A stretch of DNA of 64,000 nt from Flavobacteriaceae bacterium GF1 (GTDB taxonomy: Bacteria; Bacteroidota; Bacteroidia; Flavobacteriales; Flavobacteriaceae), in contig WNKP01000019.1 of NCBI GenBank assembly GCA_009797885.1, forward strand, positions 1 to 64,000, written 5' to 3'. The number at the start of each line of letters is the position of its first letter. Position 1 is the stretch's first letter. This document shows, one piece after another, positions 1-13,881 of this stretch. The translations under genes were made by a program, and so were the position numbers. The notes under the pieces were generated by a model that ran no database searches, was not told where the DNA came from, and saw only the letters and a program-made list of their open reading frames with translations.

Positions 1-881
1 TTCATTTCGCCCAATTGGAGGCCATTTTCTTCCACCTCGGTTGCTGAGGGAATGTTGATCAAATGGCCCTTTTCTCGGATATGTTGTTCCACTTCCGCTA
101 AACTGGGCAGATCATACCCTTCTTTAAGGACATAGTCCGGCCATCCCACCAAGTCTACCTTGACTTCCTTGGTATGGATGTTTCCGTTTACGGCCAGTTT
201 TGAATCTGGTGTGGTAGTGCCGATGCCGAGATTGCCGTTTGCAAGCATTGTCATTTTTTTTTCCGTGTAGCTTGTCCACACAAAAAGGGGCCTAGTTTGT
301 ATGGGGCCGTTACTTCTTCTGGCATCAAAGTTTATAAGGGCAATAGCGCCCGTATCATTCGCTTCCGAAGTAACTCCCGACATTTGCATGGAATATCTAT
401 TATCACTAACATGATAACCCCTTATGAGGGGTATAAACTGGTTCGGAGAGCCGGTGGCATTAACAATTTGCAGGTAATCATCGGGAGCATCTTTTACGCG
501 AAACCTCAAAAAAGATTCCGTTGGTTGATGTTCATTGATTACGTCAATATGGTGTCCGGGAGAAATGGTTCCAATACCCAATCTTCCGGCAACCAGCAAG
601 TCCGATGCTGCCGTTGGCCCCCAACCGACCAATACTTTGTGTCCGGTACTGTAATTTAGATACAGGCTGCCAATATTACTGTCGTTATGGTTCTTGCCAT
701 CAATATGGCGTACTCGTAAACGGTAATTGCCGTCTTCTCCAATATTGACATTACCCTTAACCGTTAGCTTGGAACTTGGCGTAGTGGTTCCAATACCCAC
801 ATTGCCATTGGGGTCTTCATATAGTTGCCCATTTCCAAAAAAGACGGCAAGTAAAATAATCGGTGTCAGTAATTTTTTCAT
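1..881 (-). CDS. tandem fibre-like secreted protein, copy A (3' end off window)
   Basis: This is the last visible member of the tandem array. It reads open from an ATG at 881 to the window edge, about 293 codons, so the C-terminal coiled coil is missing here. It starts with a signal peptide (MKKLLTPIILLAVFF). It carries three 'GIGT..P' repeats, near the N-terminus, in the middle and just before the conserved block. The block is the 'GWPDYVLKEGYDLP' subtype, shared only with copy E, ending at LQLGEM where the window stops. Its start directly abuts the stop of copy B at 882, so translational coupling is likely. The family is common in Bacteroidota and is often labelled hypothetical or, because of the coiled coil, 'bZIP'. 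The function is unknown; an extracellular fibre is inferred. Confidence 0.85.
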   Translation of the reverse strand, partial: MKKLLTPIILLAVFFGNGQLYEDPNGNVGIGTTTPSSKLTVKGNVNIGEDGNYRLRVRHIDGKNHNDSNIGSLYLNYSTGHKVLVGWGPTAASDLLVAGRLGIGTISPGHHIDVINEHQPTESFLRFRVKDAPDDYLQIVNATGSPNQFIPLIRGYHVSDNRYSMQMSGVTSEANDTGAIALINFDARRSNGPIQTRPLFVWTSYTEKKMTMLANGNLGIGTTTPDSKLAVNGNIHTKEVKVDLVGWPDYVLKEGYDLPSLAEVEQHIREKGHLINIPSATEVEENGLQLGEM

Positions 882-1652
882 TTACCTTGTATTTAAGAGT
901 TTCTCGATTTTTTTGAGACGTTTTTCCTGCTCCAAATGTTTTTCCTCCAATCCCATGATCTTTTTGTCTTTCTTGTCAAGTTCCTCTTCTTGTTGCAATA
1001 CATAAAGTGTCAACTCCTCGATTTTCTCCAACAGTTTCATGTTCATCCCTCCAAGCTCAATTCCATTTTCTTCCATCTCCTGGGCAGAAGGGATATTGGG
1101 CAAATGCCCGTGTTCTTTTATATAGTCCTGGACTTCTTGCAGGGATTTGAGGTCATAGCCTTCTTTAAACACATAATCCGGAGCAGGTACATTGAGATCT
1201 ACTTTGACCTCCTCGGCATGGATGTCGCCTTTTACGGTGAGTTTTGCATCCGGTGTGGTGGTGCCTATACCAAGATTTCCATTTTGTAGGATTCTCATTT
1301 TTTCAGTCGGTATGGCACTATCATAAGAGCCTTTAGTCTTAAAAACTAAATCTGCTCTTCCATAGCTTCCAACATTGTCTATACCAATCTCTGCATTTAA
1401 TCTAGTTCCACTGCTCGTTGAACTATTAAATCCATCCCTTCCAGACCACTTAATACTTGATTGCCAACCTCCGCCATTACTGCCGTCTCCGAAAAGAATC
1501 AGGTTTCCTCGTCCATCCCCTTGAGAGCCACTGGAATAGGCATTGTAATTAACATATACGTCATTTTCTACACTTACATTGGTATGGGTTTGGGAAATCA
1601 CATACAATGGTGCAAACAGAATACAAATAGGACAAAAAAGATTTCTTCTCAT
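882..1652 (-). CDS. tandem fibre-like secreted protein, copy B
   Basis: A 256-residue secreted protein with a signal peptide at residues 1-20. Its N-terminal part (about 20-130) is rich in Gly, Asn and Ser and matches none of its neighbours. It is followed by one 'LGIGTTTPDAKL' repeat, a conserved block of the 'NVPAPDYVFKEGYDLKS' subtype (HGHLPNIPSAQEME), and a C-terminal charged coiled coil (LQQEEELDKKDKK, ending LLNTR). The start overlaps the stop of copy C by 4 nt (ATGA). Function unknown; the layout of a variable head, conserved neck and coiled coil suggests a trimeric surface fibre. Confidence 0.85.
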   Translation of the reverse strand: MRRNLFCPICILFAPLYVISQTHTNVSVENDVYVNYNAYSSGSQGDGRGNLILFGDGSNGGGWQSSIKWSGRDGFNSSTSSGTRLNAEIGIDNVGSYGRADLVFKTKGSYDSAIPTEKMRILQNGNLGIGTTTPDAKLTVKGDIHAEEVKVDLNVPAPDYVFKEGYDLKSLQEVQDYIKEHGHLPNIPSAQEMEENGIELGGMNMKLLEKIEELTLYVLQQEEELDKKDKKIMGLEEKHLEQEKRLKKIEKLLNTR

Positions 1653-2437
1653 TTCTTATCTTTTTTCAGAAGGTTTATTTCTTTTTTTAGGTCAATAACA
1701 TAAAGCGTCAACTCCTCGATTTTCTCCAACAGTTTCATGTTCATCCGTCCAAGCTCAATCCCGTCTTCCTCCATCTCTTGGGCAGAAGGGATATTGGGCA
1801 AATGCCCGTGTTCTTTTATATAGTCCTGGATTTCTTGTAGGGATTTGAGGTCATAGCCTTCTTTAAAGACATAGTCGGGAGCAGGTACATTGAGATCTAC
1901 TTTGACTTCCTCGGCATGGATGTTCCCCTTTACGGTAAGTTTGGCATCTGGGCTGGTGGTTCCAATCCCCATTTTGCCATCTTTATGAAAAGTAACTATG
2001 GAACTATTATCGGAATGGCCTATGAAAAGTCGATCGGAATTGGTCTGTAAGTCGAAGCGCCAAAGTTTGCCCCCTCTTTCAAGACCTATGGCCGCACCCC
2101 CCAAAGGGTCTTTAATATGTAATTTATATAGTGGACTGCCCATACCCAACATGGTATTGCCATTTCTCACTATGAAATTTCCACCGGATTTGAATTGATA
2201 GTTTACTTCCCCATCTTGTTTTATCTTGAGTCCGTCACTTTCCAATTGAAAATGGTATACCTGGTCCGGATTGTAATGGGTATCCCTTAAGGTTAGGAGG
2301 CTGGGGCGCCATAGCGAGGTTTCAATTGTTAAATTGGCATCTTGGATTTTAGCATCCCCTGAAGGGGGGAAATCATTCTGTGCGTGCATACCCAGTAAAC
2401 ATCCCAGGGATAAGATTGTCATTCCTATTGTTTTCAT
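1649..2437 (-). CDS. tandem fibre-like secreted protein, copy C
   Basis: A 262-residue protein with a signal peptide ending around MHAQ at residue 20 and a unique N-terminal domain of about 140 residues. One 'MGIGTTSPDAKLTVKG' repeat leads into the conserved block, subtype 'NVPAPDYVFKEGYDLKS' as in B and D. The C-terminal coil is short (LKKEINLLKKDKK). It overlaps copy D by 4 nt upstream and copy B by 4 nt downstream. No catalytic motif, lipobox or type IX sorting domain is visible. Function unknown. Confidence 0.85.
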   Translation of the reverse strand: MKTIGMTILSLGCLLGMHAQNDFPPSGDAKIQDANLTIETSLWRPSLLTLRDTHYNPDQVYHFQLESDGLKIKQDGEVNYQFKSGGNFIVRNGNTMLGMGSPLYKLHIKDPLGGAAIGLERGGKLWRFDLQTNSDRLFIGHSDNSSIVTFHKDGKMGIGTTSPDAKLTVKGNIHAEEVKVDLNVPAPDYVFKEGYDLKSLQEIQDYIKEHGHLPNIPSAQEMEEDGIELGRMNMKLLEKIEELTLYVIDLKKEINLLKKDKK

Positions 2438-3294
2438 TGCATTTGTTTTTTTAACTGCTGGATTTCCTTTTCCTGTTTTCTGGTCTGTTGCAATACCATT
2501 TCCAGTATTGTCTGCTGTTGTAGGGTATAGAGTGTTAGCTCCTCAATCTTCTCCAACAGTTTCATGTTCATCCCTCCAAGCTCAATCCCGTCTTCCTCCA
2601 TTTCCTGGGCCGAAGGAATATTGGGCAAGTGCCCATGTTTTTGGATATAGCTTCGGACTTCTTCCAAAGACTTTAAATCATAACCCTCTTTAAACACATA
2701 ATCGGGAGCAGGTACATTGAGATCTACTTTAACCTCTTCGGCATGGATATCGCCTTTTACGGCCAGTTTGGCATCTGGAGTGGTGGTGCCGACACCTACG
2801 TTTCCGGAGACAACCGCGGTGTTCCCCATTTTGGGAACATCTTGATATATGCCGGGATCATTTACACGGACAATAGTGCTGGGAATATCAACAATTAAGA
2901 TGGCTTCCTTTGTGACAGAAAGCTCAATGGAGATATGACCATAGTAGCCCTGGGATCTTCCAAAAAGTTCATAGGTGGTATCGTTTATTTTTCTAAATGT
3001 GAGGTAATCCCCAATTTCAGTTCCTGAGATAGTATAGTTCCATTTGCCCGGATTGGCACTTCCCTCCCTCATAATTAATGTAGCATTTGCGGAGTATCCT
3101 TTTTCATTGGTCCTTACATAATTTATATGGGCATCGACAATAACCGAATTGTGACTTCCATTACCGGCCAAGTCAAAATGTGCCAACTTGCACCATCCTG
3201 ATGTGGCCCCATAACTAAACTTCCCTTGATAAGAATCCTGGGCCAACAGCGCGCCATGTAAAACCATAAATACTAACAGAAATCTATTTTTCAT
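2434..3294 (-). CDS. tandem fibre-like secreted protein, copy D
   Basis: A 286-residue protein with a signal peptide (MKNRFLLVFMVLHGALLAQ). The N-terminal 150 residues look like a beta-rich domain (many alternating hydrophobic, Thr and Ile residues) unlike those of its neighbours. Next come one 'VGVGTTTPDAKLAVKG' repeat, the 'NVPAPDYVFKEGYDLKSLEEV' block and a Gln/Lys-rich coiled coil. The gene overlaps copy E by 11 nt and copy C by 4 nt. Function unknown. Confidence 0.85.
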   Translation of the reverse strand: MKNRFLLVFMVLHGALLAQDSYQGKFSYGATSGWCKLAHFDLAGNGSHNSVIVDAHINYVRTNEKGYSANATLIMREGSANPGKWNYTISGTEIGDYLTFRKINDTTYELFGRSQGYYGHISIELSVTKEAILIVDIPSTIVRVNDPGIYQDVPKMGNTAVVSGNVGVGTTTPDAKLAVKGDIHAEEVKVDLNVPAPDYVFKEGYDLKSLEEVRSYIQKHGHLPNIPSAQEMEEDGIELGGMNMKLLEKIEELTLYTLQQQTILEMVLQQTRKQEKEIQQLKKQMQ

Positions 3295-4153
3295 TGTCCT
3301 TTTTTTCCAGTTCTTTAATTCTTTTCTCTTGTTGTAGAGTGTAAAGGGTCAACTCTTCAATCTTTTCCAACAACAGCTTGTTCATCTCCCCTAAATGGAC
3401 ACCATTTTCTTTAACCTTGGCTGCAGAGGGAATATTGATCAAATGGCCCTTTTCTCGGATATGTTGTTCCACTTCCTCTAAACCGGGCAGGTTATACCCT
3501 TCTTTAAGGACATAGTCCGGCCATCCCACCAAGTCCACCTTCACCTCTTGGGCATGGATATTTCCATTTACGGCCAATTTGTATGCCCCTGGATTTGCGG
3601 TGCCTATTCCTACATTTCCATTTGGTAAAAGTGACGGGAAATGATTGATCTGAGCAGCATCGAAATCGTAGTAAAAAGGTTGGGTGGAGAATGCCAAAAT
3701 ATCCGTTGGGGGTGTTGTTTGGCTGGTCAGTGGGGTAGTCCAATTGCCGTGACCCAACCCATCTATCATCCTATATTTTATGGTTCCCCATTTGGCCGTG
3801 GCGCGAATCCATACCTGGCTGTTCTTCACCAATACTTCCAGCATTCCAGGTTTACCACTCAAATAGTTCATGGAAACACCATCCAACCTATTGGAGGGAG
3901 TGGCTGAATGTCTGGATACAAAAATGGAGTTTCTGGAATGGTACATGTAGTTGTCATCTGCCAGAACCAAAACCTCGAATTCCGCGCTGATGTCCCCATT
4001 GAAGCCATTCATATCCATAAGGAGAAAATAATTATACGGATACGGGCTGGGATTGGAATATGTGGCCCCTAAAGAGACCCATGCTTGGCCGTTGGTTTGA
4101 ATTGCACAAAAAAATGCAATTACAAATCCAATCAAAAGCACCTTTTTTTTCAT
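3284..4153 (-). CDS. tandem fibre-like secreted protein, copy E (divergent neck subtype)
   Basis: A 289-residue protein with a signal peptide ending near TNGQ at residue 23. It has a unique N-terminal domain of about 150 residues and one 'VGIGTANPGAYKLAVNG' repeat. The conserved block is 'GWPDYVLKEGYNLPGLEEVEQHIREKGHLINIPSA', which it shares with copy A rather than with its immediate neighbours D and F. The C-terminal coil is LQQEKRIKELEKKDNEK. The start overlaps copy F by 4 nt. Its position between two blocks of the other subtype points to duplication of a mixed unit or to exchange of C-terminal cassettes. Confidence 0.85.
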   Translation of the reverse strand: MKKKVLLIGFVIAFFCAIQTNGQAWVSLGATYSNPSPYPYNYFLLMDMNGFNGDISAEFEVLVLADDNYMYHSRNSIFVSRHSATPSNRLDGVSMNYLSGKPGMLEVLVKNSQVWIRATAKWGTIKYRMIDGLGHGNWTTPLTSQTTPPTDILAFSTQPFYYDFDAAQINHFPSLLPNGNVGIGTANPGAYKLAVNGNIHAQEVKVDLVGWPDYVLKEGYNLPGLEEVEQHIREKGHLINIPSAAKVKENGVHLGEMNKLLLEKIEELTLYTLQQEKRIKELEKKDNEK

Positions 4154-4815
4154 TGTTTACTTTTTTTGAGTTCTTCTATCTCTTCTTGTTGCTGTTCATT
4201 TTGCTTTTTCAATTCAATGACATAAAGCGTCAACTCCTCGATCTTCTCCAACAGTTTCATGTTCAGCGCTCCAAGCTCAATTCCATTTTCTTCCAACTCC
4301 TTTGCAGAGGGCACATTGGGCAAGTGCCCATGTTTTTTTATGTAGTCCTGGACTTCTTGCAGGGACCTTAGATCATAGTCCTCCTTAAAAACATAATCCG
4401 GGGCAACCGCCCCATTAAGGTCCACCTTGACTTCCTGGGCATGGATATCCCCCTTTACGGCAAGTTTGGCGTCCGGGTTGGTGGTGCCTATTCCAACCCG
4501 GCCATTGCCATGAATCGACATTAACTCTTTATCTTGACTTGTTCCATTCCAATAATCAAAATAAAAACCTAACCTATCATTGGTGTCATCGCCAAAAGCA
4601 ATGATTGATCTTGAGCTATCATTTTCGACACCTAAATACATGCGATCGTTTCCATCGGAAATCCTTACACGTCCATCTCTGATTTCAAGCTTATCTATTG
4701 GGGATAATGTTCCTATACCAACATTGCCATCATCGGGGAAAATGTTGGTGAACTGGGCATTTGAGGGTAAAAAGGACAGGAAAGAAATTAACAAGGTAAA
4801 TTTTAATCCGTTCAT
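4150..4815 (-). CDS. tandem fibre-like secreted protein, copy F (shortest)
   Basis: At 221 residues this is the shortest member. It has a signal peptide (ending SNAQ) and two 'VGIGT..P' repeats, one directly after the signal peptide and one before the conserved block. Only about 60 residues of variable sequence lie between them. The block is of subtype 'NGAVAPDYVFKEDYDLRS', shared with G, H and I. The coil is rich in Gln, Glu and Lys. It starts 5 nt after the stop of copy G. It may represent the minimal working unit of the family. Function unknown. Confidence 0.85.
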   Translation of the reverse strand: MNGLKFTLLISFLSFLPSNAQFTNIFPDDGNVGIGTLSPIDKLEIRDGRVRISDGNDRMYLGVENDSSRSIIAFGDDTNDRLGFYFDYWNGTSQDKELMSIHGNGRVGIGTTNPDAKLAVKGDIHAQEVKVDLNGAVAPDYVFKEDYDLRSLQEVQDYIKKHGHLPNVPSAKELEENGIELGALNMKLLEKIEELTLYVIELKKQNEQQQEEIEELKKSKQ

Positions 4816-4820
4816 TTATT

Positions 4821-5894
4821 TTAATTTAGGAGTTCTTCAATTTTGGAGAGGCGGTCCTCCAACACAATAATTTTTTTGTTTTCTTTTTCAAGCTTTGCCA
4901 TTTTGGAATTTTGAGTTTTTAGCTCTTGAATTTCTTCTTCTTGCTTCAAAGTGTAAAGCGTCAACTCCTCAATCTTCTCCAATAGCCTTAGGTTCATTTG
5001 GCCCAAATCAATGCCGTTGGCCTCCATTTCCTGGGCCGAAGGGATATTGGGCAAATGCCCATGTTCTTTTATGTAGTCCTGGACTTCTTGCAGGGACCTT
5101 AGATTATAGTCCTCCTTAAAGACATAATCCGGGGCAACGGCCCCATTAAGGTCTACCTTAACTTCCTGGGCATGGATATTGCCCTTTACGGTTAGTTTGG
5201 CGTCCGGGTTGGTGGTGCCTATTCCAACCCGGCCACCTCCATGTGTCATATATACATCGGAAGTACTGTTATGACCAATCGACACATGATCATTGCTATA
5301 TCTGTTTAAGTGCAGCCAATGTGCATCGCCTTCGGTTTCTATGCCATGATAACCATTGATTTTTATTGAGGATCCATTTCCTGCATCATATAATGAATTC
5401 CCAACCAAATGAAAGGTTTCCGAGGGTTGGGTGGTACCAATCCCTACATTGCCTCCATTTAAATAGGAAGATCCATTGGTATGGATTAGGAATTTTTGCT
5501 CAATCGCATCGTTTCTTCCCGTGATATAGCCATTCCCTTGACCATTCATGGCTACCCGGTAACTTCCGTTCCTACTTACCGCTATGTAATTGGTCGCGTT
5601 AAAGTAACCCGCTATTTGAAAGTTTCCCTGTGTATTTAAGCCTGCAATCGGCACCAAACCATCAATTCCCCAGGTCCATCCCCTACTGGTATCCGAATTC
5701 ATGTTCATTTTAATACTGTAATCGGTAACAGGGCCGTATTGGTATTCGGAAGTATTGCCCATGTGTATCTTATAATTGTCACTGTTCCAAAAGCGCAAAC
5801 CATATCCATTGCCCGCCGTTACGGGATAATATTGTTGTTGGGCATACAGGCCTGTCCAAAGGACAAGGGCCAAAACCATTGCGATTCTTTTCAT
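4821..5894 (-). CDS. tandem fibre-like secreted protein, copy G (longest)
   Basis: A 357-residue protein, the longest complete member. It has a signal peptide (MKRIAMVLALVLWTGLYAQ) and a variable region of about 230 residues containing an internal 'VGIGTTQPSETFHL' repeat. A second 'VGIGTTNPDAKLTVKG' repeat precedes the 'NGAVAPDYVFKEDYNLRS' block, and the C-terminal coiled coil is long (KLEKENKKIIVLEDRLSKIE). The DNA of the conserved block is almost the same as in F, H and I. The gene overlaps copy H by 4 nt. Function unknown. Confidence 0.85.
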   Translation of the reverse strand: MKRIAMVLALVLWTGLYAQQQYYPVTAGNGYGLRFWNSDNYKIHMGNTSEYQYGPVTDYSIKMNMNSDTSRGWTWGIDGLVPIAGLNTQGNFQIAGYFNATNYIAVSRNGSYRVAMNGQGNGYITGRNDAIEQKFLIHTNGSSYLNGGNVGIGTTQPSETFHLVGNSLYDAGNGSSIKINGYHGIETEGDAHWLHLNRYSNDHVSIGHNSTSDVYMTHGGGRVGIGTTNPDAKLTVKGNIHAQEVKVDLNGAVAPDYVFKEDYNLRSLQEVQDYIKEHGHLPNIPSAQEMEANGIDLGQMNLRLLEKIEELTLYTLKQEEEIQELKTQNSKMAKLEKENKKIIVLEDRLSKIEELLN

Positions 5895-6823
5895 TTTGAT
5901 GTATTGATTTTTTGTTCCATTTTATTTAGGCGCTCTTCAATTGCCTGTATCTTTTTGTTCTTTTGTTCCAACGCAATGATATATAGCGTCAACTCCTCAA
6001 TCTTCTCCAATAGTTTTAGGTTCATTTGGCCCAAATCGATGCCATTGGCCTCCATTTCCTGGGCCGAAGGGATATTGGGCAAGTGCCCATGTTTTTTTAT
6101 GTAGTCCTGGACTTCTTGCAGGGACCTTAGATCATAGTCCTCCTTAAAAACATAATCCGGGGCAACCGCCCCATTAAGGTCCACTTTAACTTCCTGGGCA
6201 TGGATATCCCCCTTTACGGCAAGTTTGGCGTCCGGGTTGGTAGTACCGATGCCGACACGACCGCCACCATCTGATCGTATCACCATCCAATCTTTAAAAG
6301 CATTGTCTGTGGGAGTGTATCCACGGAACACAAAACCCCCATCGGTTCCTCCGTTGGTCAAATTGCCATCCCTCATTTCGAAAACGATGCCATCCCTCCA
6401 TTCTCCGAAGTAATTCACATCCCCAAAAACCCTGAACCCCTCACCGGCATCCATATAAAAATCACCCCTTAAATCCAGTTTGGCAGTGGGTGCCGGGGTT
6501 CCAATCCCAATATTACCGTTGGTCGTTATTTTAAAAAATGAGTTTGCAAAATCGTTTTTTCCAAAATCGAAACCTCCAGCATCGCTGACCCGAAGGCCAT
6601 AGGTGTTGGCCTCAGTATTGTTACCACCATGTTTGAGATGGAGGTAATCACCAACATCTGATGACCAACCTGTTCGAATGAGCGGTCTGTTGTGTTCCCC
6701 GTCACTTAGTGTAAACACGAAATCCGTGGCTATGCTTTGTATCCTTCCCGAAGGTGATGGTGTTACCTGACCAAGGCCACCTGCTGAAACCAGCACTAGC
6801 AAACAAATGGATAGGTTTCTCAT
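5891..6823 (-). CDS. tandem fibre-like secreted protein, copy H
   Basis: A 310-residue protein. I chose the ATG at 6823 because it gives a clean signal peptide (MRNLSICLLVLVSAGG) and leaves 1 nt after the stop of copy I; a start at 6856 would add 11 charged residues and overlap copy I. It has two 'GIGT' repeats, one of them variant (IGIGTPAPTAKLDLRG). The 'NGAVAPDYVFKEDYDLRS' block and a coil (EQKNKKIQAIEERLNKME) follow. Function unknown. Confidence 0.83.
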   Translation of the reverse strand: MRNLSICLLVLVSAGGLGQVTPSPSGRIQSIATDFVFTLSDGEHNRPLIRTGWSSDVGDYLHLKHGGNNTEANTYGLRVSDAGGFDFGKNDFANSFFKITTNGNIGIGTPAPTAKLDLRGDFYMDAGEGFRVFGDVNYFGEWRDGIVFEMRDGNLTNGGTDGGFVFRGYTPTDNAFKDWMVIRSDGGGRVGIGTTNPDAKLAVKGDIHAQEVKVDLNGAVAPDYVFKEDYDLRSLQEVQDYIKKHGHLPNIPSAQEMEANGIDLGQMNLKLLEKIEELTLYIIALEQKNKKIQAIEERLNKMEQKINTSK

Positions 6824-6824
6824 A

Positions 6825-7643
6825 TCAGTTTTTTTGTTGTTTTTTAATCGCATCAATACGCTTTTCCAGTTCTTGGAGCTTTTCGGTGATGTTTTCCAAC
6901 TGCTCGTTTTTTTGTTTTAGCTGTTCTTCTTGTGCAAGGGTGTATAAAGTCAACTCCTCAATCTTCTCCAACAGTTTTAGGTTCATTTGGCCCAAGTCAA
7001 TACCATTGGCCTCCATTTCCTGGGCCGAAGGGATATTGGGCAAGTGCCCATGTTCTTTTATGTAGTCCTGAACTTCTTGCAGGGACCTTAGATCATAGTC
7101 CTCCTTAAAAACATAATCCGGGGCAACCGCCCCATTAAGGTCCACCTTAATTTCTTGGGCATGGATATTGCCCTTTACGGCCAGTTTGGCATCTGGGTTT
7201 GAAGTTCCTATGCCCAAATTCCCCGAACTGGTCAATCGCATATACTCGGTCAATAGGTGCTGCCCATCAGAATCGTGGTTATTGTGGTTTCTGTATAACC
7301 ACCGGAAGCCATAGTTTGACCCTTCGAATACGCCTTTGCTGGTATAACGATTTGTTCCGTAGAAGTAATCCCTTGCATCTTCGTTGTCCCTATAGGCATT
7401 GAACCCAATATAGCCTGCCCATTTATAGGAATTACCGCCCCAATTGTGTTCGTTGGTCCAATCCAAGTGGAGTACACCCCATTTTCCCGTGGCTATTCTT
7501 CCCTCAACCTGTAATTTCGATGAAGGGGTTGTCGTCCCAATGCCTACATTGCCAGTTGTAGGAAAAGTGTTGGTCTGGCCAAAGGATACTAATGGGAGAT
7601 TGAACCAGAGGAGTACGGAAAGGTATTTTAATAGGTTGGCCAT
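6825..7643 (-). CDS. tandem fibre-like secreted protein, copy I (first gene of the array)
   Basis: A 272-residue protein and the 5'-most gene of the array, so the operon promoter should lie in 7644-8114. It has a signal peptide ending near SFGQ at residue 23, a 'VGIGTTTPSSKLQVEG' repeat and a variable region rich in Asn, Tyr and His. A second 'LGIGTSNPDAKL' repeat, the 'NGAVAPDYVFKEDYDLRS' block and a long coiled coil follow. It is transcribed away from the secretion-like operon starting at 8115. Function unknown. Confidence 0.85.
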   Translation of the reverse strand: MANLLKYLSVLLWFNLPLVSFGQTNTFPTTGNVGIGTTTPSSKLQVEGRIATGKWGVLHLDWTNEHNWGGNSYKWAGYIGFNAYRDNEDARDYFYGTNRYTSKGVFEGSNYGFRWLYRNHNNHDSDGQHLLTEYMRLTSSGNLGIGTSNPDAKLAVKGNIHAQEIKVDLNGAVAPDYVFKEDYDLRSLQEVQDYIKEHGHLPNIPSAQEMEANGIDLGQMNLKLLEKIEELTLYTLAQEEQLKQKNEQLENITEKLQELEKRIDAIKKQQKN

Positions 7644-8114
7644 GGCAAGCGGTTATGATGTACATTACGTTCGTTTGGAACACTATTGTAAAAACCATTA
7701 CCACGTATTTTTTCCTACGCCCAAAACAACATCACTTACTCCGGGCCATCATAAAATTCCGGAAGTCATATGCCCTGTTCCACCCCTTTTCCCTGGCTTC
7801 ATTGGAATGGAAAATTATGGGAAAAGACATATGCTTACTTTAAAAACTGATAAAAATTAATGATCTTGGTTGTTACTCAGCAGAAAAATTAGTGTATAAA
7901 AAAACTACTTTTTAACGTAATTTTTCTTACATCAAATGTGCGTATCAAATTAAAATTATAACATGATAATTATCATATGGATGGTTTTTTTTTCTGTATA
8001 TTATTACAGAATAGTTATATTAAGACCTTTATAGTTTTTATGGCATATATCGCTATGGAATTTGTTAAACCCACACAATCTTGCAGAATCAATAACCATT
8101 TAATTGAGTAAAGT
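7644..8114. promoter_or_regulatory. divergent intergenic region between fibre array and secretion operon
   Basis: This AT-rich stretch of 471 bp separates the array (minus) from the secretion-like operon (plus) and must hold both promoters. The half next to the array (7644-7850) is less AT-rich. The only strong signal is a perfect 14-bp palindrome, ATGATAATTATCAT at 7963-7976, placed about midway. No convincing gene or structural RNA was seen, and I could not assign -33/-7 boxes with confidence. Confidence 0.5.
7963..7976. promoter_or_regulatory. 14-bp perfect palindrome, candidate operator
   Basis: ATGATAATTATCAT reads the same on both strands and lies between the divergent fibre array and secretion operon, about 140 bp upstream of the pseudopilin start. 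It could be the binding site of a dimeric regulator serving either side. In such AT-rich sequence a chance origin cannot be excluded. Confidence 0.35.
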
Positions 8115-8537
8115 ATGTCATCCTTTGTCCGTCATTTTTTTAAAAAGAAGGTCCTGGCCATCAACCTTCAAGAGACCCTTATTGTATTAGCTATCATAGG
8201 CATCCTATTATTATTGGCATTACCTAACCTTATGCCCTTGATATCCAAAGCCAAAAGCGTGGAGGCCCAGGTACAGCTCAAAGCTATTTACAACGCCCAG
8301 ACCACTCACCGCTATATGAACAGCAAGTACACTGCGGATATCGCTGAACTGGATTTTGAACCTCCGAGGACCGTAAAGGAAAATGGAACGGCCAATTATG
8401 TGTACTCCTTGGTCAATGCGGACAACGCAAGCTTTACGGCCCGGGCCGAGGCGATTACCGATTTTGATGGGGACGGTGTATTCAATGTTTGGGAAATAGA
8501 CGAAAATGGCAATCCCAAACAAATTGTAAAGGATTGA
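8115..8537 (+). CDS. GspG-like type II secretion pseudopilin
   Basis: A 140-residue class III prepilin. The leader is short and basic, followed by the hydrophobic N-terminal helix with Glu20 at mature position 5 (INLQETLIVLAIIGIL). The residue before the predicted cleavage site is Ala15, not the usual Gly. Near the C-terminus D116-x-D-G-D-G-x-x-x-x-W-E resembles the calcium site of GspG. It is the first gene of the operon, and its stop overlaps the prepilin peptidase start (TGATG). Major pseudopilins assemble a short periplasmic pseudopilus that works with the secretin. GspG is the best fit; a minor type IV pilin is possible. Confidence 0.8.
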   Translation: MSSFVRHFFKKKVLAINLQETLIVLAIIGILLLLALPNLMPLISKAKSVEAQVQLKAIYNAQTTHRYMNSKYTADIAELDFEPPRTVKENGTANYVYSLVNADNASFTARAEAITDFDGDGVFNVWEIDENGNPKQIVKD

Positions 8538-9022
8538 TGGTTTTGCTAAAGATTCTGGCCATACTGGCCCTGAGCTTTATCGCTTTCCAGGATTTTAAGG
8601 AAAGAAGGGTCTTTTGGTTCCTGTTTCCCCTTTTGGCCCTACTATTGACCAGCATCCATTTTTTATACAGTCCCTTGACCACTATATATTTTTACCATAT
8701 CCTGTTGAACCTCTTGGCAGTACTATTGGTATTGACCCTTGTCTTCTTGTATACCCGATTGGTCCAAAAAAAGCGATTTGTTGACCATAGTCTTGGATTG
8801 GGGGATATTCTCCTGTTCATTGGTTTGGCAATGGCCTTTCCAACGGTCACATTTTTGATTTTGTTCACTAGCTCGCTCTTTTGTTCCTTGATCGCTTTTT
8901 TTGCACTTAAAGGGCGTTCCGCACACGCTACCATTCCCTTGGCAGGCCTTATGGGCCTATTTTTTAGTATGGCCATTGGATATTCCCTCTTTTTTGAACA
9001 TCCCTCCCTTTATATCTTCTAA
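8537..9022 (+). CDS. prepilin peptidase (A24 aspartic protease)
   Basis: A 161-residue inner-membrane protein of about six helices when started at the ATG overlapping the pseudopilin stop. A start at 8489 would add 16 polar residues and overlap the pseudopilin by 49 nt. Asp19 (AFQDFKERR) and Asp90 in GLGD are the two conserved aspartates of type IV prepilin peptidases. The N-terminal methyltransferase/zinc domain of full-length PilD is absent, as in the short archaeal-type forms. It would remove the leader of the upstream pseudopilin. Confidence 0.85.
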   Translation: MVLLKILAILALSFIAFQDFKERRVFWFLFPLLALLLTSIHFLYSPLTTIYFYHILLNLLAVLLVLTLVFLYTRLVQKKRFVDHSLGLGDILLFIGLAMAFPTVTFLILFTSSLFCSLIAFFALKGRSAHATIPLAGLMGLFFSMAIGYSLFFEHPSLYIF

Positions 9023-9024
9023 CT

Positions 9025-10434
9025 ATGATTGCGGACTATACCATTGCTTTGGATTTGGCACAACATATCAGTGCAGAACAGGCCTTTCATTATCGGATCG
9101 TTCCCAAAATCCGCAATAATGGCACATTGGTGCTCATGACGGATGCGGAAAGGCTACAGGAACTGGAATCGGAGCTACAAATTGTACTGGACATCCCCTT
9201 GGAGTTGGAGCATATCGATTCCGATACCTTGCAACATCTTTTGACGGCCAATTATCGAAAATCTCGAAAATCAGCCAGTGATGAACTGCGTTTCACCACC
9301 GATTTTTTGGAAAACCTATTGGTGACCGCCAAGGAGCTTGGCAGTAGCGATATCCATTTTGAGCCCTATGAAAACCATTGTAGGGTCCGTTTTCGATTGG
9401 ACGGAAAACTGGTGGAACAGTTCCATGTGGCCCTAGAGGAATATCCCACCATAGTGAACAAGATAAAGATAAGGGCAGGTCTGGACATTGCGGAAAAACG
9501 GTTGCCCCAAGACGGACGAATTACGGTAAAATCCACAGGGGCCGAATTTGATATTCGGGTTTCCTCCCTGCCTACCTTATTTGGGGAGAAAATCGTACTT
9601 CGGATTTTGAACAGGGATACTGAACAATTGAGCCTACAAGATTTGGGGCTCAATGATCTGCAATTGCGGCGTTATACCGAGGGTACTAAAAAACCCAATG
9701 GCATTGTCCTGATTTCGGGGCCCACCGGTTCCGGAAAAACCACCACGCTGTACGCGACCCTAAAACTATTGAACAATACCGAAACCAATATCCTGACCAT
9801 TGAGGACCCTATTGAATATACCTTGGGAGGCATCAACCAAGTACAGTTAAAGGAAAACATCGGTTTGGATTTCGCCAGTGCACTGCGCACTTTTTTGAGG
9901 CAGGATCCGGATATTATCATGGTTGGGGAGATTCGGGATGTAAAAACGGCCAATATGGCCATTCGAGCGGCACTTACCGGACATTTGGTCCTGTCCACCA
10001 TACATACCAACTCTGCATGGGCAACCGTATCCCGATTGATCGATATGGGCATTCCTCCCTTTTTGATAGCGAGTACCTTAAACCTGAGCGTGGCACAACG
10101 GTTGGTACGTAAACTCTGTCCTTTATGTAAGGAACAAAAACCGGTATCCCAGGAACTGTTCCCGGAAGGGTTCCAAATCCCAAAAAATTTGTCCCACCAT
10201 TATGAGGCCGTTGGGTGCCATGAATGTTTCCACACCGGATATTCCGGTAGGAAGGCCCTGTATGAAGTGATTCCCATCACCCAAGAATTAAGCGGACATA
10301 TTAAAAACAACGTCCTGGAAATCGACTCCTACATAAGGTACCATAGCATTACCACCTTACGGGAAAATGCCCTTGCCATGCTTTTGGAAGGGACGACGTC
10401 CATAGAAGAAATATATTCCCTCTTAACCAGTTGA
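9025..10434 (+). CDS. gspE: GspE/PilB-type secretion ATPase
   Basis: A 469-residue cytoplasmic hexameric ATPase that powers pseudopilus assembly. Visible motifs are Walker A GPTGSGKTT (232-240), an Asp box (TIEDPIEY, 258-265), Walker B with DPDIIMVGEIRD (around 294-305), a His box (STIHTNSA, 324-331) and a tetracysteine zinc site (C365, C368, C398, C401). The N-terminal N1E-like region is short. It starts 2 nt after the peptidase. The zinc site favours GspE/PilB (assembly) over PilT (retraction). Confidence 0.92.
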   Translation: MIADYTIALDLAQHISAEQAFHYRIVPKIRNNGTLVLMTDAERLQELESELQIVLDIPLELEHIDSDTLQHLLTANYRKSRKSASDELRFTTDFLENLLVTAKELGSSDIHFEPYENHCRVRFRLDGKLVEQFHVALEEYPTIVNKIKIRAGLDIAEKRLPQDGRITVKSTGAEFDIRVSSLPTLFGEKIVLRILNRDTEQLSLQDLGLNDLQLRRYTEGTKKPNGIVLISGPTGSGKTTTLYATLKLLNNTETNILTIEDPIEYTLGGINQVQLKENIGLDFASALRTFLRQDPDIIMVGEIRDVKTANMAIRAALTGHLVLSTIHTNSAWATVSRLIDMGIPPFLIASTLNLSVAQRLVRKLCPLCKEQKPVSQELFPEGFQIPKNLSHHYEAVGCHECFHTGYSGRKALYEVIPITQELSGHIKNNVLEIDSYIRYHSITTLRENALAMLLEGTTSIEEIYSLLTS

Positions 10435-10438
10435 CCGT

Positions 10439-12670
10439 ATGAAATACCCTATTTTGGCATTTTTGCTGTTTATCGGTCTCCATGGCTCAGCACAGGACGA
10501 GGGCCGTATTCTTGGGATCCAGAACAATCTGGAGGCCTTGGCCGTTGATAATAAGGGATTGACCGAGACCCTTAAATTGGACATCAATGTAAGCAGTGTT
10601 CCTTTGTCCAATTTTCTCCTGGCCGTTTCAGAGGTCCATCAAATCAATATTAACATTGACCCAAGCCTACAGGGCATCAACATTGTCAACAATTTTTCCA
10701 ATGTGGCCGTAGCCGATCTTTTGGTTTTTTTGTGCAAGGAATATGGGTTGGATATTGATTTTACAGGGAATATCCTATCCATTAAAAAATATGAGCCCCC
10801 ACCACCCATCATTCCGGAAAAGGAAATTCTGGTCTCATACGACCCCATAAACAATAGCTTGTCCACTGATTTGAGGAATGACCCTTTGGAAAAGACCTTT
10901 CGAAAGTTGATTGATGTTAGCGGCCAAAACCTATTGTTTGGAAATGGAATGGAAAACATACCGCTTACGCTGTACCTTAAGGACGTGCCTTTTGAAATTG
11001 CCATGGAGAAACTGGCAGGGACCAATGGTCTTAGTTTTTCCAAGTCGCGTGATGGTTTTTATTTGTTCGACCGGATAGACCCACCTGCTTCCAATACGGA
11101 AGGCACCTCTGCCACGAACCGCAGATCATACGGCCAGAACAGTAATTTCAACTATCAGGTCATAGATACCACGAAAAGGATTGTTTCCGTGGACTTTGAC
11201 AATGTCCCGCTTGCGGACATCATTAAATCCATGGCCCATGACTTGAACCTGGATATTTACATGGCCACTCCATTACAGGAGGCCGGTAATGTGAGCATCA
11301 AGGCCAAACAAATGTATTTTGATGAATTGTTGACCAAGATTTTTGAGAGCAAGGCCTCGACTTCCTTTTCGAACAATCGAGCTTTGAACGATCCCACCAA
11401 TGGTCCCACAAGGGGACAGCCCAGCAATTTTAATCCTGCACAGGCCCAAAACCGCGGAACGTCCTTTACCTTTAAAAAAGAAGATGACATTTATTATTTT
11501 GGGACCGCAGATCAATTGAGCGTACGTAGGTTCGAGGTGGTGCAGATGATGCACCGCTCGGTGGAACTGTTGGGAGACCCCATGCCTTCTTCCTCATTTA
11601 ACCGATCTGCGGGAAGGACCGTCACCGGGGGAGTCAACTATTTGGGGAATGGTTTTCAAAACGGTGGTGTTCCAGGAGGGGTTGGAGTAGGAGCGGGACT
11701 TGGAAATCGTGGACAGAATTTCAATAATCAAAGGCCCATTACCCCACAGAACAATCAATTTGGGAATTACAGCACTGCTGCCGAAGCGATTGTAAATATT
11801 CTTCCTGCCGAGGTTACGGCCGATTTGGACATCCAAGTGGATTTTGAATTGAACAGTTTTTTGGTCAGCGGCCCCGCAACCCACATTAATAGGTTTAAAA
11901 AATTCATCAAGGAAATTGATAAACCGGTTCCCGTAGTACTTATTGAGGTCATGTTGATTGAGGTACGCAGGAATGCTACCGTGGAAACAGGAATCAGTTG
12001 GGGCATTGGCGATGGTCCCGTGGACACCCAAGGGGCTATTTTTCCAGAAGCGAACCTAACATTGGGTGCCCAAACAGTGAACAAGATCATTGGCGGTTTT
12101 GATGGGTTCGGTTCCTTTAATATCGGTAAGGTAGTGCCCGAGTTTTTTGCCACGATCAAGGCCATGGAAGCCAATGGAAACATTAAAATTCGTTCCACCC
12201 CCAAATTATCCACCTTAAATGGGCACCGCGCCAATCTTTCCATAGGGGAAACCACCTATTACGTGGTGACCAGTCAGAATTTCTTTGGCGCACAGATTCC
12301 AACGGCCTCCGAAATCCGTAATTTTCTGCCCATAGACGCGCAATTGGCGGTGAGTATCAAACCCCTGGTTTCCGGAAACGGACAAGTGACCCTGGAAATC
12401 AATGTGATCCAATCCGATTTCAGCGGGGAGCGCATTGATGAGGACGCCCCTCCAGGGTTGACTTCAAGGGAATTTAGTTCCATTATCCGCATGCAGAACC
12501 AAGATTTGGCCATTTTGGGCGGCCTGGAGGAAAAAATCAAAACCGATACGGGCAGTGGGGTGCCCTTTTTAGCTCGAATACCGATAATAAAGTGGCTTTT
12601 TAGCCAACGGAGTAGGGAAGACTCCAAACAGAAGTTGACCATTCTAATTAAACCAACCGTTATCTACTAG
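10439..12670 (+). CDS. gspD: GspD-like outer-membrane secretin
   Basis: A 743-residue protein with a signal peptide (ending GSAQ). The periplasmic N0/N1-type domains span about residues 35-370 and are interrupted by Asn/Gln/Gly-rich linkers around 310-330 and 390-440. The C-terminal secretin domain includes 'VLIEVMLIEVRRNATVETGISWG', 'STPKLSTLNGHRANLSIG', 'SREFSSIIRMQNQDLAILGG' and 'VPFLARIPIIKWLF'. It forms the outer-membrane channel. The stop overlaps the GTG start of the next gene by one base. No pilotin gene is visible nearby. Confidence 0.9.
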   Translation: MKYPILAFLLFIGLHGSAQDEGRILGIQNNLEALAVDNKGLTETLKLDINVSSVPLSNFLLAVSEVHQININIDPSLQGINIVNNFSNVAVADLLVFLCKEYGLDIDFTGNILSIKKYEPPPPIIPEKEILVSYDPINNSLSTDLRNDPLEKTFRKLIDVSGQNLLFGNGMENIPLTLYLKDVPFEIAMEKLAGTNGLSFSKSRDGFYLFDRIDPPASNTEGTSATNRRSYGQNSNFNYQVIDTTKRIVSVDFDNVPLADIIKSMAHDLNLDIYMATPLQEAGNVSIKAKQMYFDELLTKIFESKASTSFSNNRALNDPTNGPTRGQPSNFNPAQAQNRGTSFTFKKEDDIYYFGTADQLSVRRFEVVQMMHRSVELLGDPMPSSSFNRSAGRTVTGGVNYLGNGFQNGGVPGGVGVGAGLGNRGQNFNNQRPITPQNNQFGNYSTAAEAIVNILPAEVTADLDIQVDFELNSFLVSGPATHINRFKKFIKEIDKPVPVVLIEVMLIEVRRNATVETGISWGIGDGPVDTQGAIFPEANLTLGAQTVNKIIGGFDGFGSFNIGKVVPEFFATIKAMEANGNIKIRSTPKLSTLNGHRANLSIGETTYYVVTSQNFFGAQIPTASEIRNFLPIDAQLAVSIKPLVSGNGQVTLEINVIQSDFSGERIDEDAPPGLTSREFSSIIRMQNQDLAILGGLEEKIKTDTGSGVPFLARIPIIKWLFSQRSREDSKQKLTILIKPTVIY

Positions 12671-13881
12671 TGTTCGGCAACTTTCTTAAATACATACAAA
12701 CGGGTTCCTCTTTTCAGGGATTGGAAGTGTTTTCAACATCAGATCGTTCCCACCACTATGCCTTGATCTTGATAAGGAAAAAGAAGAATGAACTCGTTAT
12801 GGAACAGCAAATGGTCTATGAAGACTGGGATACCATGGTCCGTTCATTGAAATCCAACTTGCCCCTATGCATTGCCTTTTCCTTGGAGGAGATCATCACC
12901 AAAAAAACCGATGCCGAAAAAAGGGTGGAAGGGGAAGCCTTGGTCAACCATATGTTTCCCAACATTAACTTCGACACCATTTTTTTTGAGACCTACCCCT
13001 TGCTTGAGGATACCCATATCTCCATCTCCAAAAAGAAAAGTGTACTGGAGTACCTGGAGCAACTGGAAAAGGTGAACATAAAACCCGTTTCCCTGTTTTT
13101 AGGTTGTAGTGCCCTAGCTGCCATAATTCCTTATATTACCAATTCCACGATCGGTACCAATACCTTTTCCTTAGGGATCGATCGGAGCACTAAAAAAATT
13201 ACATCCTTACACGCATCCGATTCCTCTCTGGATCTGGTGTATGAACTAAACGGTCTGGCCATAAAATCCCAATTCTTGATGGCTTTTGGAGCTATTTTGG
13301 GCTATCTATCCCCAGTTGCAAAAAACTCCAATCTTTCTGGATTACTGAATTTGCTACAGACGGATTTCACCAACAAAAGACTGTTTTCCCTTTTAGTGCG
13401 ATTTTCCCTATTCCTTATCCTGGGAGTCCTTATGGCCAATTTTCTGGTATTCAACCATTATTTCAAAAAGGTTCAGAAATTGCAAGAACTGACCAGTATC
13501 ACGGAAAACAACCGGGAAATCTACCAAGGGCTTTTGGGAAAGGTAACCGCAAAAGAAGAACGCTTAAAAACCATTGTGTCCCATTCCAGCTCCAAGGTTT
13601 CGTATTATCTGGATGAATTGGCCTCCCGGATTCCCGGCACCATAAGATTGGAGCAACTGATTTACCAACCTTTGGCCACTCCGGTGCGTGAGACCAAACC
13701 CATAGTATTGGAAAAGAATAAAATCAAGGTTATTGGAACTACACAGGACCATGTTTCCTTTTCCGGCTGGATTGAGGCTTTAGAGGAATTACCTTGGATC
13801 CATTCCATACAAACCGTTGATTTTGATTATGAGAAATCGAATCGGACCCGTTTTGGAATCGAAATTAGCTGCGATGAATAG
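12670..13881 (+). CDS. PilM/PilN (GspL)-like assembly-platform protein, GTG start
   Basis: A 403-residue protein. Residues 1-230 resemble the actin-like cytoplasmic domain of GspL/PilM, although sequence support is weak. A transmembrane helix lies at about 238-260, followed by a periplasmic coiled coil and a ferredoxin-like domain like PilN/GspL. It appears to be a fused PilM-PilN arrangement that links the ATPase to the inner-membrane platform. The start is GTG overlapping the secretin stop (TAGTG), which indicates tight coupling. The assignment rests on topology and operon position more than on motifs. Confidence 0.65.
   Translation: MFGNFLKYIQTGSSFQGLEVFSTSDRSHHYALILIRKKKNELVMEQQMVYEDWDTMVRSLKSNLPLCIAFSLEEIITKKTDAEKRVEGEALVNHMFPNINFDTIFFETYPLLEDTHISISKKKSVLEYLEQLEKVNIKPVSLFLGCSALAAIIPYITNSTIGTNTFSLGIDRSTKKITSLHASDSSLDLVYELNGLAIKSQFLMAFGAILGYLSPVAKNSNLSGLLNLLQTDFTNKRLFSLLVRFSLFLILGVLMANFLVFNHYFKKVQKLQELTSITENNREIYQGLLGKVTAKEERLKTIVSHSSSKVSYYLDELASRIPGTIRLEQLIYQPLATPVRETKPIVLEKNKIKVIGTTQDHVSFSGWIEALEELPWIHSIQTVDFDYEKSNRTRFGIEISCDE

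Follow-up and report, generated by a model that had tools for sequence, protein, structure and literature searches.

Arrays of phage-fibre-type genes linked to Rhs genes and type II secretion genes in a flavobacterium and its relatives

We analysed a stretch of 64,000 nucleotides from Flavobacteriaceae bacterium GF1 (assembly GCA_009797885.1, contig WNKP01000019.1, positions 1 to 64,000; hereafter the window), which opens at positions 1-7643 with nine consecutive open reading frames (ORFs) on the minus strand encoding proteins with signal-peptide-like starts, unlike N-terminal heads and one conserved C-terminal block. These proteins are related to known fibres, genes of this kind are recurrently linked to Rhs genes and to type II secretion system (T2SS) genes, the Rhs proteins have dissimilar ends, and the fibre heads and tails have separate histories. 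The bacterium may use the array to make several recognition fibres with which it contacts other cells or surfaces. In our judgement the chances are evenly balanced that it is a repertoire of short secreted fibres derived from phage-tail-fibre parts, exported by a T2SS for recognition and acting with Rhs toxins.

Fibre genes with unlike heads and a constant tail

The fibre genes of the window, the run beginning with gene 9, are as follows.

3..881, minus strand: fibre gene 1, cut by the contig start, its remainder probably at the end of contig C59
882..1652, minus strand: fibre gene 2
1649..2437, minus strand: fibre gene 3
2434..3294, minus strand: fibre gene 4, predicted head beta-rich and resembling phage tailspike domains
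3284..4153, minus strand: fibre gene 5
4150..4815, minus strand: fibre gene 6, modelled
4821..5894, minus strand: fibre gene 7
5891..6856, minus strand: fibre gene 8, listed from TTG, with in-frame ATGs at codons 2 and 12
6825..7643, minus strand: fibre gene 9, first gene of the run

The complete proteins are 221-357 residues long, and VGIGT-type repeats number 3, 1, 1, 1, 1, 2, 2, 2 and 2 in genes 1 to 9. The heads of the eight complete genes match each other by BLAST (E 1e-3) in only 2 of 28 pairs and their tails share 51 invariant alignment columns, so the split into a constant and a variable part is real; the tail cores are 63-90% identical in DNA. An earlier note on this DNA had described nine genes with unlike heads, one to three VGIGT repeats and a constant tail, and the ORFs and repeat counts also bear it out. 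The signal peptides that it assigned are upheld by a crude hydrophobic-stretch test, not a dedicated predictor, which was passed by 7 of the 8 complete window genes and by 233 of 286 related fibres; a lipobox-like motif occurs in 1 of the 286.

From gene 1 to gene 9 the junctions are a 0-nucleotide gap, overlaps of 4, 4, 11 and 4 nucleotides, a 5-nucleotide gap and an overlap of 4 nucleotides. At the junction of genes 8 and 9 the ORFs overlap by 32 nucleotides from the TTG start of gene 8 or by 29 from the ATG at codon 2, and are separated by a 1-nucleotide gap if the ATG at codon 12 is used. Across 35 junctions in 16 loci (selected by a motif filter), 25 are 4-nucleotide overlaps, 5 are other overlaps and 5 are gaps of 0-28 nucleotides. 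Translation of all nine genes as one coupled unit, as the earlier note had it, is plausible. A promoter scan showed no excess (19 matches versus 18.0 in shuffled sequences); terminator-like matches numbered 16 versus 9.2 in shuffles, many of them inside the repeated coding DNA of the tails, and no conclusion was drawn from them. A near-identical G+C-rich inverted repeat is found in the coding DNA of four tails, at the NGAVAPDYV codons (window positions 7134-7119, 6173-6158, 5145-5130 and 4414-4399), and possibly reflects codon choice only.

The fibre or adhesin nature of the array, which the earlier note had proposed, is well supported, and judged by profile and model the proteins are of the phage-fibre type. 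A profile of 75 fibres, chosen from 177 head groups obtained with a greedy 50% rule, finds the MAT fibres of Bdellovibrio; these are also matched by residues 53-126 of the gene 6 model and are the best match by both routes. Beta-helix units with the capping-loop motif of MAT fibres (VGIGT..P...L type) are present in the gene 6 model and in the fibre profiles. Several of the named viral Foldseek matches are S74/intramolecular-chaperone proteins. Head grouping depends on the method: single linkage places 178 of 271 heads in one of 53 groups, probably chained by repeats, versus the 177 groups of the greedy rule.

MAT fibres of Bdellovibrio bacteriovorus, according to Caulton et al. 2024 (PMC10769870), have a constant N-terminal domain and a variable C-terminal tip and are typically about 1000 residues long; the same paper states that other bacteria may use further such domains. 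Compared with MAT fibres, the window proteins are alike in that they are probably secreted, in their many copies, in their VGIGT..P-type beta-units and in the mosaic exchange of one end. They differ in varying the N-terminus and keeping the C-terminus constant, a reversed polarity, in their length, and in their overlapping gene arrays linked to Rhs and T2SS genes. The conserved N-terminal domain of about 130 residues that follows the signal peptide in MAT fibres has no counterpart here, the N-termini of the array being unlike each other, nor is there a variable C-terminal tip or S74 domain, the C-terminal module being the constant part.

This constant block has no Pfam or NCBIfam match above cut-off. 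Its helices are predicted at residues 152-162, 171-177 and 181-220 in the gene 6 model, and the same helices are predicted in gene 4. The structure-comparison lists, which covered model residues 25-125 of gene 6 and 3-146 of gene 4, gave no fold for the tail by itself. A tail profile matches Bd2133 within its VGIGT part only; the next rows, picornavirus 3A proteins (E 0.006-0.014), were taken for chance. S74 phage tail fibres likewise have VGIGT-like units followed by a C-terminal helical module, but PF13884 (S74) has no match in the window proteins or in the genome. In hhalign the tail scores 92.5% against S74 with its VGIGT part and 18.9% without it (best of 30 column shuffles 11%, reversed 3%); S74 membership is not claimed, the profile similarity being weak once the VGIGT part is removed. 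A genome of the same genus (G004) has no tail, secretin or DUF6443 match and carries three S74-domain genes close together; S74 and the constant C-terminal module may replace each other.

The tail block was also found at 13 loci in IMG/VR. Four of these (L119-L122) look bacterial, with signal-peptide-like starts, and were dropped as evidence for phages. The other nine are fibre-like proteins ending in the block, most without VGIGT, for example on L124 (1811 residues), L127 (1700), L130 (1777) and L128 (786). Six viral-contig proteins were compared with PHROGs: only the L124 fibre, which has ten VGIGT repeats, matched tail-fibre families (E 1e-32), the L127 fibre matched other families, and four, including those of L128 and L130, had no match. 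Sheath- and terminase-like neighbours were recognised by eye on L124 and L130.

Linkage to Rhs genes and secretion genes

Window position 1 is the first base of its contig (C10 of the genome under study, G000), so gene 1 is truncated and the nine genes are not the whole array. Judged by sequence, contig C59 probably holds the rest of the array, for 11 genes in all: the last 44 nucleotides of C59 are identical to the first 44 of the window, and its end holds a partial fibre gene followed by two more complete ones. The same 44-mer is present once more, inside a C59 fibre gene, so synteny carries the join as much as the overlap does. It is supported by a related genome, G007, in which a single contig carries both flanks (92-95% DNA identity) around one nine-gene array. 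The nine-gene array of the earlier note thus holds within the window and is not the entire run, which goes on, beyond the window, into Rhs genes. The number of genes at this locus is 11 (probable) in G000, 9 in G007 and 3 in G002. G000 has 23 tail-bearing fibre genes and, on C61, one remnant; two further match rows, of 26 in all, are pieces of gene 1. Tail matches occur in 25 of 60 genomes searched (its own included), with 1 to 28 rows per genome. Single-copy, invariable orthologues with conserved heads, named in the earlier note as speaking against its reading, are not what the relatives carry.

On C59 the fibre genes are followed, on the same strand and with overlaps or gaps of at most 11 nucleotides, by an OmpH-like gene, a gene for a 207-residue lipoprotein-like protein (recognised by eye), a gene for a 1765-residue protein and an Rhs gene. 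Neither Pfam nor NCBIfam matched the 1765-residue protein, which we class as Rhs-type from its position and by eye. Comparable layouts recur after fibre genes in this and related genomes, with gene types that we label F2, F4 and F5: F4 and F2 (L132, L140, L144); OmpH, lipoprotein-like, F5 and F2 (L133, L139, L150/L149, L179, L180); and F2 alone (L142). Small ORFs follow some of the Rhs genes. Pfam matches in these post-fibre genes are DUF6443, RHS repeats and OmpH, with SpvB in some, and F5-type proteins have none. The cut-off of TIGR03696 (Rhs core) was passed by 3 of 5 F2 proteins. Nine of 28 F2-type ORFs are complete and have the core motif; these nine share the core and are dissimilar over their C-terminal 223-342 residues. 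The RHS repeats, Rhs core and variable C-terminus of Rhs polymorphic toxins are accordingly all found in the downstream genes. Rhs polymorphic toxin operons are alike in having DUF6443 or SpvB with RHS repeats, an Rhs core and dissimilar C-termini; unlike them, a fibre array precedes the Rhs genes here, in many cases together with genes for an OmpH-like and a lipoprotein-like protein, and T2SS genes often lie alongside. A PADLOC scan of four Rhs and two fibre proteins returned nothing.

An Rhs gene lies at most 8 kb downstream on the same strand in 43 of 79 fibre clusters (from 73 loci of named genomes, six of them in G007): 28 of the 43 are within 500 nucleotides, a further 9 have an OmpH-like gene within 250 nucleotides and 6 lie at 0.9-7.5 kb. 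The link was seen in 16 of 18 arrays of at least four genes, 19 of 22 of two or three and 8 of 25 singletons, counted over 65 evaluable clusters, a choice that favours the link in that it keeps Rhs-positive clusters even with little flanking DNA and drops 14 Rhs-negative ones out of the 79. In eight whole genomes an Rhs gene follows 17 of 52 clusters versus 0.31 expected (three match rows, pieces of a counted gene, being left out); conversely, a fibre lies upstream of 17 of 33 Rhs loci. Arrays of at least four genes in these genomes are Rhs-linked in 5 of 6 cases, or in 6 of 6 if C10 and C59 form one array.

Divergent from the fibre genes, the window carries the following secretion genes, which the earlier note had left unconnected to the array (8115-13881).

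8115..8537, plus strand: type IV pilin/GspG-like, divergent from the fibres (Pfam pilin models E 4e-5 to 2e-4, below cut-offs)
8489..9022, plus strand: probable prepilin peptidase (PF01478 E 1e-4, 23.1 bits, below the cut-off of 26.5)
9025..10434, plus strand: GspE-type secretion ATPase (PF00437 E 2.4e-129)
10439..12670, plus strand: secretin, GspD (PF00263 E 1.4e-35), the sole secretin match in G000
12670..13881, plus strand: PilN/GspL-like, weak (PF05137 E 0.004, below cut-off)

Beyond the Rhs genes of C59 (L184) come a GspF gene, a pilin-like gene whose product has an N-methylation motif, and other small genes. The T2SS gene set of GspD, GspE, GspF, pseudopilins and prepilin peptidase was found, with the prepilin peptidase and the GspG-like pilin below cut-off and the whole not told apart from a type IV pilus. 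Seven of nine genomes tested have exactly one secretin, about 10 kb or less from fibres, and one two-domain GspF gene; the other two, G004 and G006, have neither, and no fibres. Secretin matches occur in 8 of the 13 genomes with a strong tail match versus 2 of the 47 others, where strong means E<=1e-30, a border set after the table had been seen. Without that border, tail presence is associated with secretin (p 0.001) and with DUF6443 (p 0.002) over the 60 genomes, uncorrected for kinship. T2SS genes lie near fibres in at least 14 of the 73 loci, including Shiella (Cytophagales) and Parapedobacter (Sphingobacteriales).

Some smaller features accompany these loci. On L184 (6468-13841), the Rhs genes are separated from the GspF end of the island by a gene for a 2457-residue protein with PKD and CHU_C domains, the latter a type IX secretion system (T9SS) signal. 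Short ORFs with partial, weak tail matches stand upstream of Rhs-type genes (L164 7130-7645, L167 8210-8725, L170 7928-8497, L169 9287-9661, L138 5714-6229) and look like decayed or reduced fibre genes. Small G000 fibre arrays at C3:109553-110855, C4:50187-51496 and C11:53909-56289 have no Rhs or T2SS gene seen alongside, and the one on C3 adjoins a row of small membrane-like paralogues.

Histories of heads and tails

At the array locus the flanks of G000 and G007 are collinear, array order and content differ, and similarity breaks within genes. Breaks in similarity were mapped in 21 loci: 35 of the 60 distinct ones are at most 45 nucleotides from a VGIGT motif versus 11.6 at random, an enrichment that is partly trivial in that the motif is the border of constant and variable DNA; of the other 25 breaks, 17 are 252-292 nucleotides from the motif, as expected for the end of the tail core (direction unchecked). 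In the head comparison, 2 of 39 rows set one genome against itself (L044/L151, both G056), and without them the count is 34 of 66.

When the 22 complete G000 fibres were compared with the fibres in the set from two close relatives, G002 and G007, a set which did not include all fibres of those two genomes, a head orthologue was full for 7, partial for 7 and absent for 8. The head of gene 2 is 84% identical to that of an Allomuricauda nanhaiensis fibre, about half of the longer head being covered, with the tails of that pair at 62%. That of gene 3 matches longer heads in G002 and G007 at 96-97% identity over part of their length (0.62), and gene 4 and its head orthologue in G007 are 86% identical in the head and 73% in the tail core. 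Fifteen head-orthologue pairs, which overlap one another and were picked for at least 75% head identity, have heads 79-100% identical in protein with omega of 0.00-0.16. Median synonymous divergence (dS) in these pairs is 0.21 for heads, near the 0.20-0.28 of GspE and GspD, and 0.50 for tail cores; the tail core exceeds the head in 14 of the 15, the exception being a G000 singleton (L021), with a Wilcoxon p of 9e-5 that is optimistic as the pairs overlap. For 5 of the 7 full head orthologues the closest tail sits on the same gene.

By these comparisons heads and tails have partly separate histories, which supports the interchangeable heads proposed earlier, and shared heads are constrained. 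The earlier idea of a diversification locus survives in that the repertoire turns over, as the gene numbers and orthologue counts show, but the shared heads are not hypervariable; this qualifies the hypervariable reading of such arrays.

Proposed mechanism and its alternatives

On the proposal that T2SS-exported recognition fibres act with Rhs toxins, each fibre would consist of an N-terminal receptor-binding head, one to three VGIGT beta-units as in the trimeric shaft of MAT fibres, and the common C-terminal module. This module, short helices leading into a long coiled-coil helix, would most likely nucleate and register trimers and dock all fibres to one partner. Fibre chains would be exported by Sec and trimerise in the periplasm, helped by the OmpH/Skp-like chaperone, and the T2SS would export the folded fibres together with Rhs shells. 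With several fibres displayed at once the cell would recognise several surfaces, the targets probably being glycans on competitors or prey, and the Rhs protein would carry an exchangeable toxic C-terminus. Turnover of the repertoire would come about as heads are gained, lost and recombined at the VGIGT/tail borders, with kept heads under purifying selection.

We tentatively extend this to a so far undescribed fibre-guided weapon of Bacteroidota, in which a T2SS would export phage-derived, head-diverse trimeric fibres and split Rhs shells with exchangeable toxic tips, several specificities being displayed at once and heads being joined to a common tail module by recombination at VGIGT borders. 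Among the literature matches listed, including PMC10769870, PMC7073777 and PMC12487129, no fibre-Rhs-T2SS locus in Bacteroidota is described, in a search that did not extend to preprints, subscription journals or the MAT paper's supplements; the tail motifs and DUF6443 were not found in any paper of the literature searched. According to PMC7073777, the TANFOR polymorphic toxins of Bacteroidetes are similarly giant, Sec-exported and tied to a two-step secretion route, but pair with T9SS, in contrast to Rhs and T2SS here; the words fiber and fibre are absent from the main text of that paper. The present data place MAT-like fibres of reversed architecture in Bacteroidota, tied to Rhs genes and a T2SS, and make testable what the T2SS cargo of flavobacteria is, how giant Rhs proteins are exported and targeted outside type VI secretion and Tc systems, and how one bacterium keeps many recognition heads on one tail.

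Several observations weigh against the proposal. No toxin domain was named in the Rhs proteins, and two of them have no PDB sequence match at E 0.01. In the eight whole genomes, 16 of 33 Rhs loci lack an upstream fibre and 35 of 52 fibre clusters lack a downstream Rhs gene, the latter including, in G000, the C10 array part cut by the contig end, three small arrays and one singleton. Five of the 13 strong-tail genomes (G005, G022, G031, G038, G039) have no secretin match, so the T2SS cannot be the sole export route; in G005 a small protein with a T9SS sorting domain is encoded between fibre and Rhs instead, and G048 has a secretin but no tail match at all. The models are of monomers, and that of gene 4 matched tailspikes, with no MAT shafts among its matches. 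As to exchange, the closest tail in the two relatives, whatever its head, has dS of at least 0.35 for 21 of the 22 fibres, and tails may diverge faster at silent sites. The idea that tails, not heads, are the exchanged part was withdrawn for this reason; pairs picked by head similarity and overlapping show different head and tail histories, not which part moved. The proposed mechanism does not rest on which part is exchanged.

The many fibre clusters without Rhs genes would also fit a surface-attachment island, in which the proteins are secreted adhesins for algae, particles or biofilm matrix and their Rhs neighbours are large teneurin-like surface shells without toxicity. The named relatives are mostly flavobacteria of marine, surface-associated genera, and the fibres include fn3, Big_2 and a CBM60-like match. 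We nevertheless regard this as doubtful, given the common core and unlike C-termini of nine Rhs proteins, which is the pattern of polymorphic toxins, and the predominance of Rhs linkage among arrays of at least four genes.

An unlikely alternative is that the fibres serve as tip adhesins, or as minor subunits, in a type IV pilus-like filament built from the neighbouring pilin, GspE, GspD and GspF genes, parts which T2SS and type IV pili have in common. A fibre gene lies between GspE and GspD in G029 (L150 8091-8969) and another lies 17 nucleotides before GspD in Parapedobacter koreensis (L108), but by eye the fibre starts resemble signal peptides, not prepilin leaders, and Rhs linkage is at least as frequent as T2SS linkage.

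Very improbable is a domesticated phage tail-fibre locus that supplies a prophage, tailocin or contractile injection system with its receptor-binding fibres: the tail module and VGIGT repeats are common to phage-like fibres, and one IMG/VR contig (L119) suggests such a setting, but the fibres have Sec-type N-termini, which tails put together in the cytoplasm would not need. Among neighbours inspected by eye (most not Pfam-scanned) there was no sheath, tube or baseplate gene, and a tblastn search of 50,697 phage records with the gene 2 tail gave no match at E 1e-3. On L119 (IMGVR_UViG_2728369500_000003, 5536-12362), a fibre with a signal-peptide-like start, a T9SS-signal protein (below cut-off) and a giant Rhs-like gene (by eye) stand beside genes that look phage-like by eye on a contig classed as viral, a cassette possibly carried at a prophage border.

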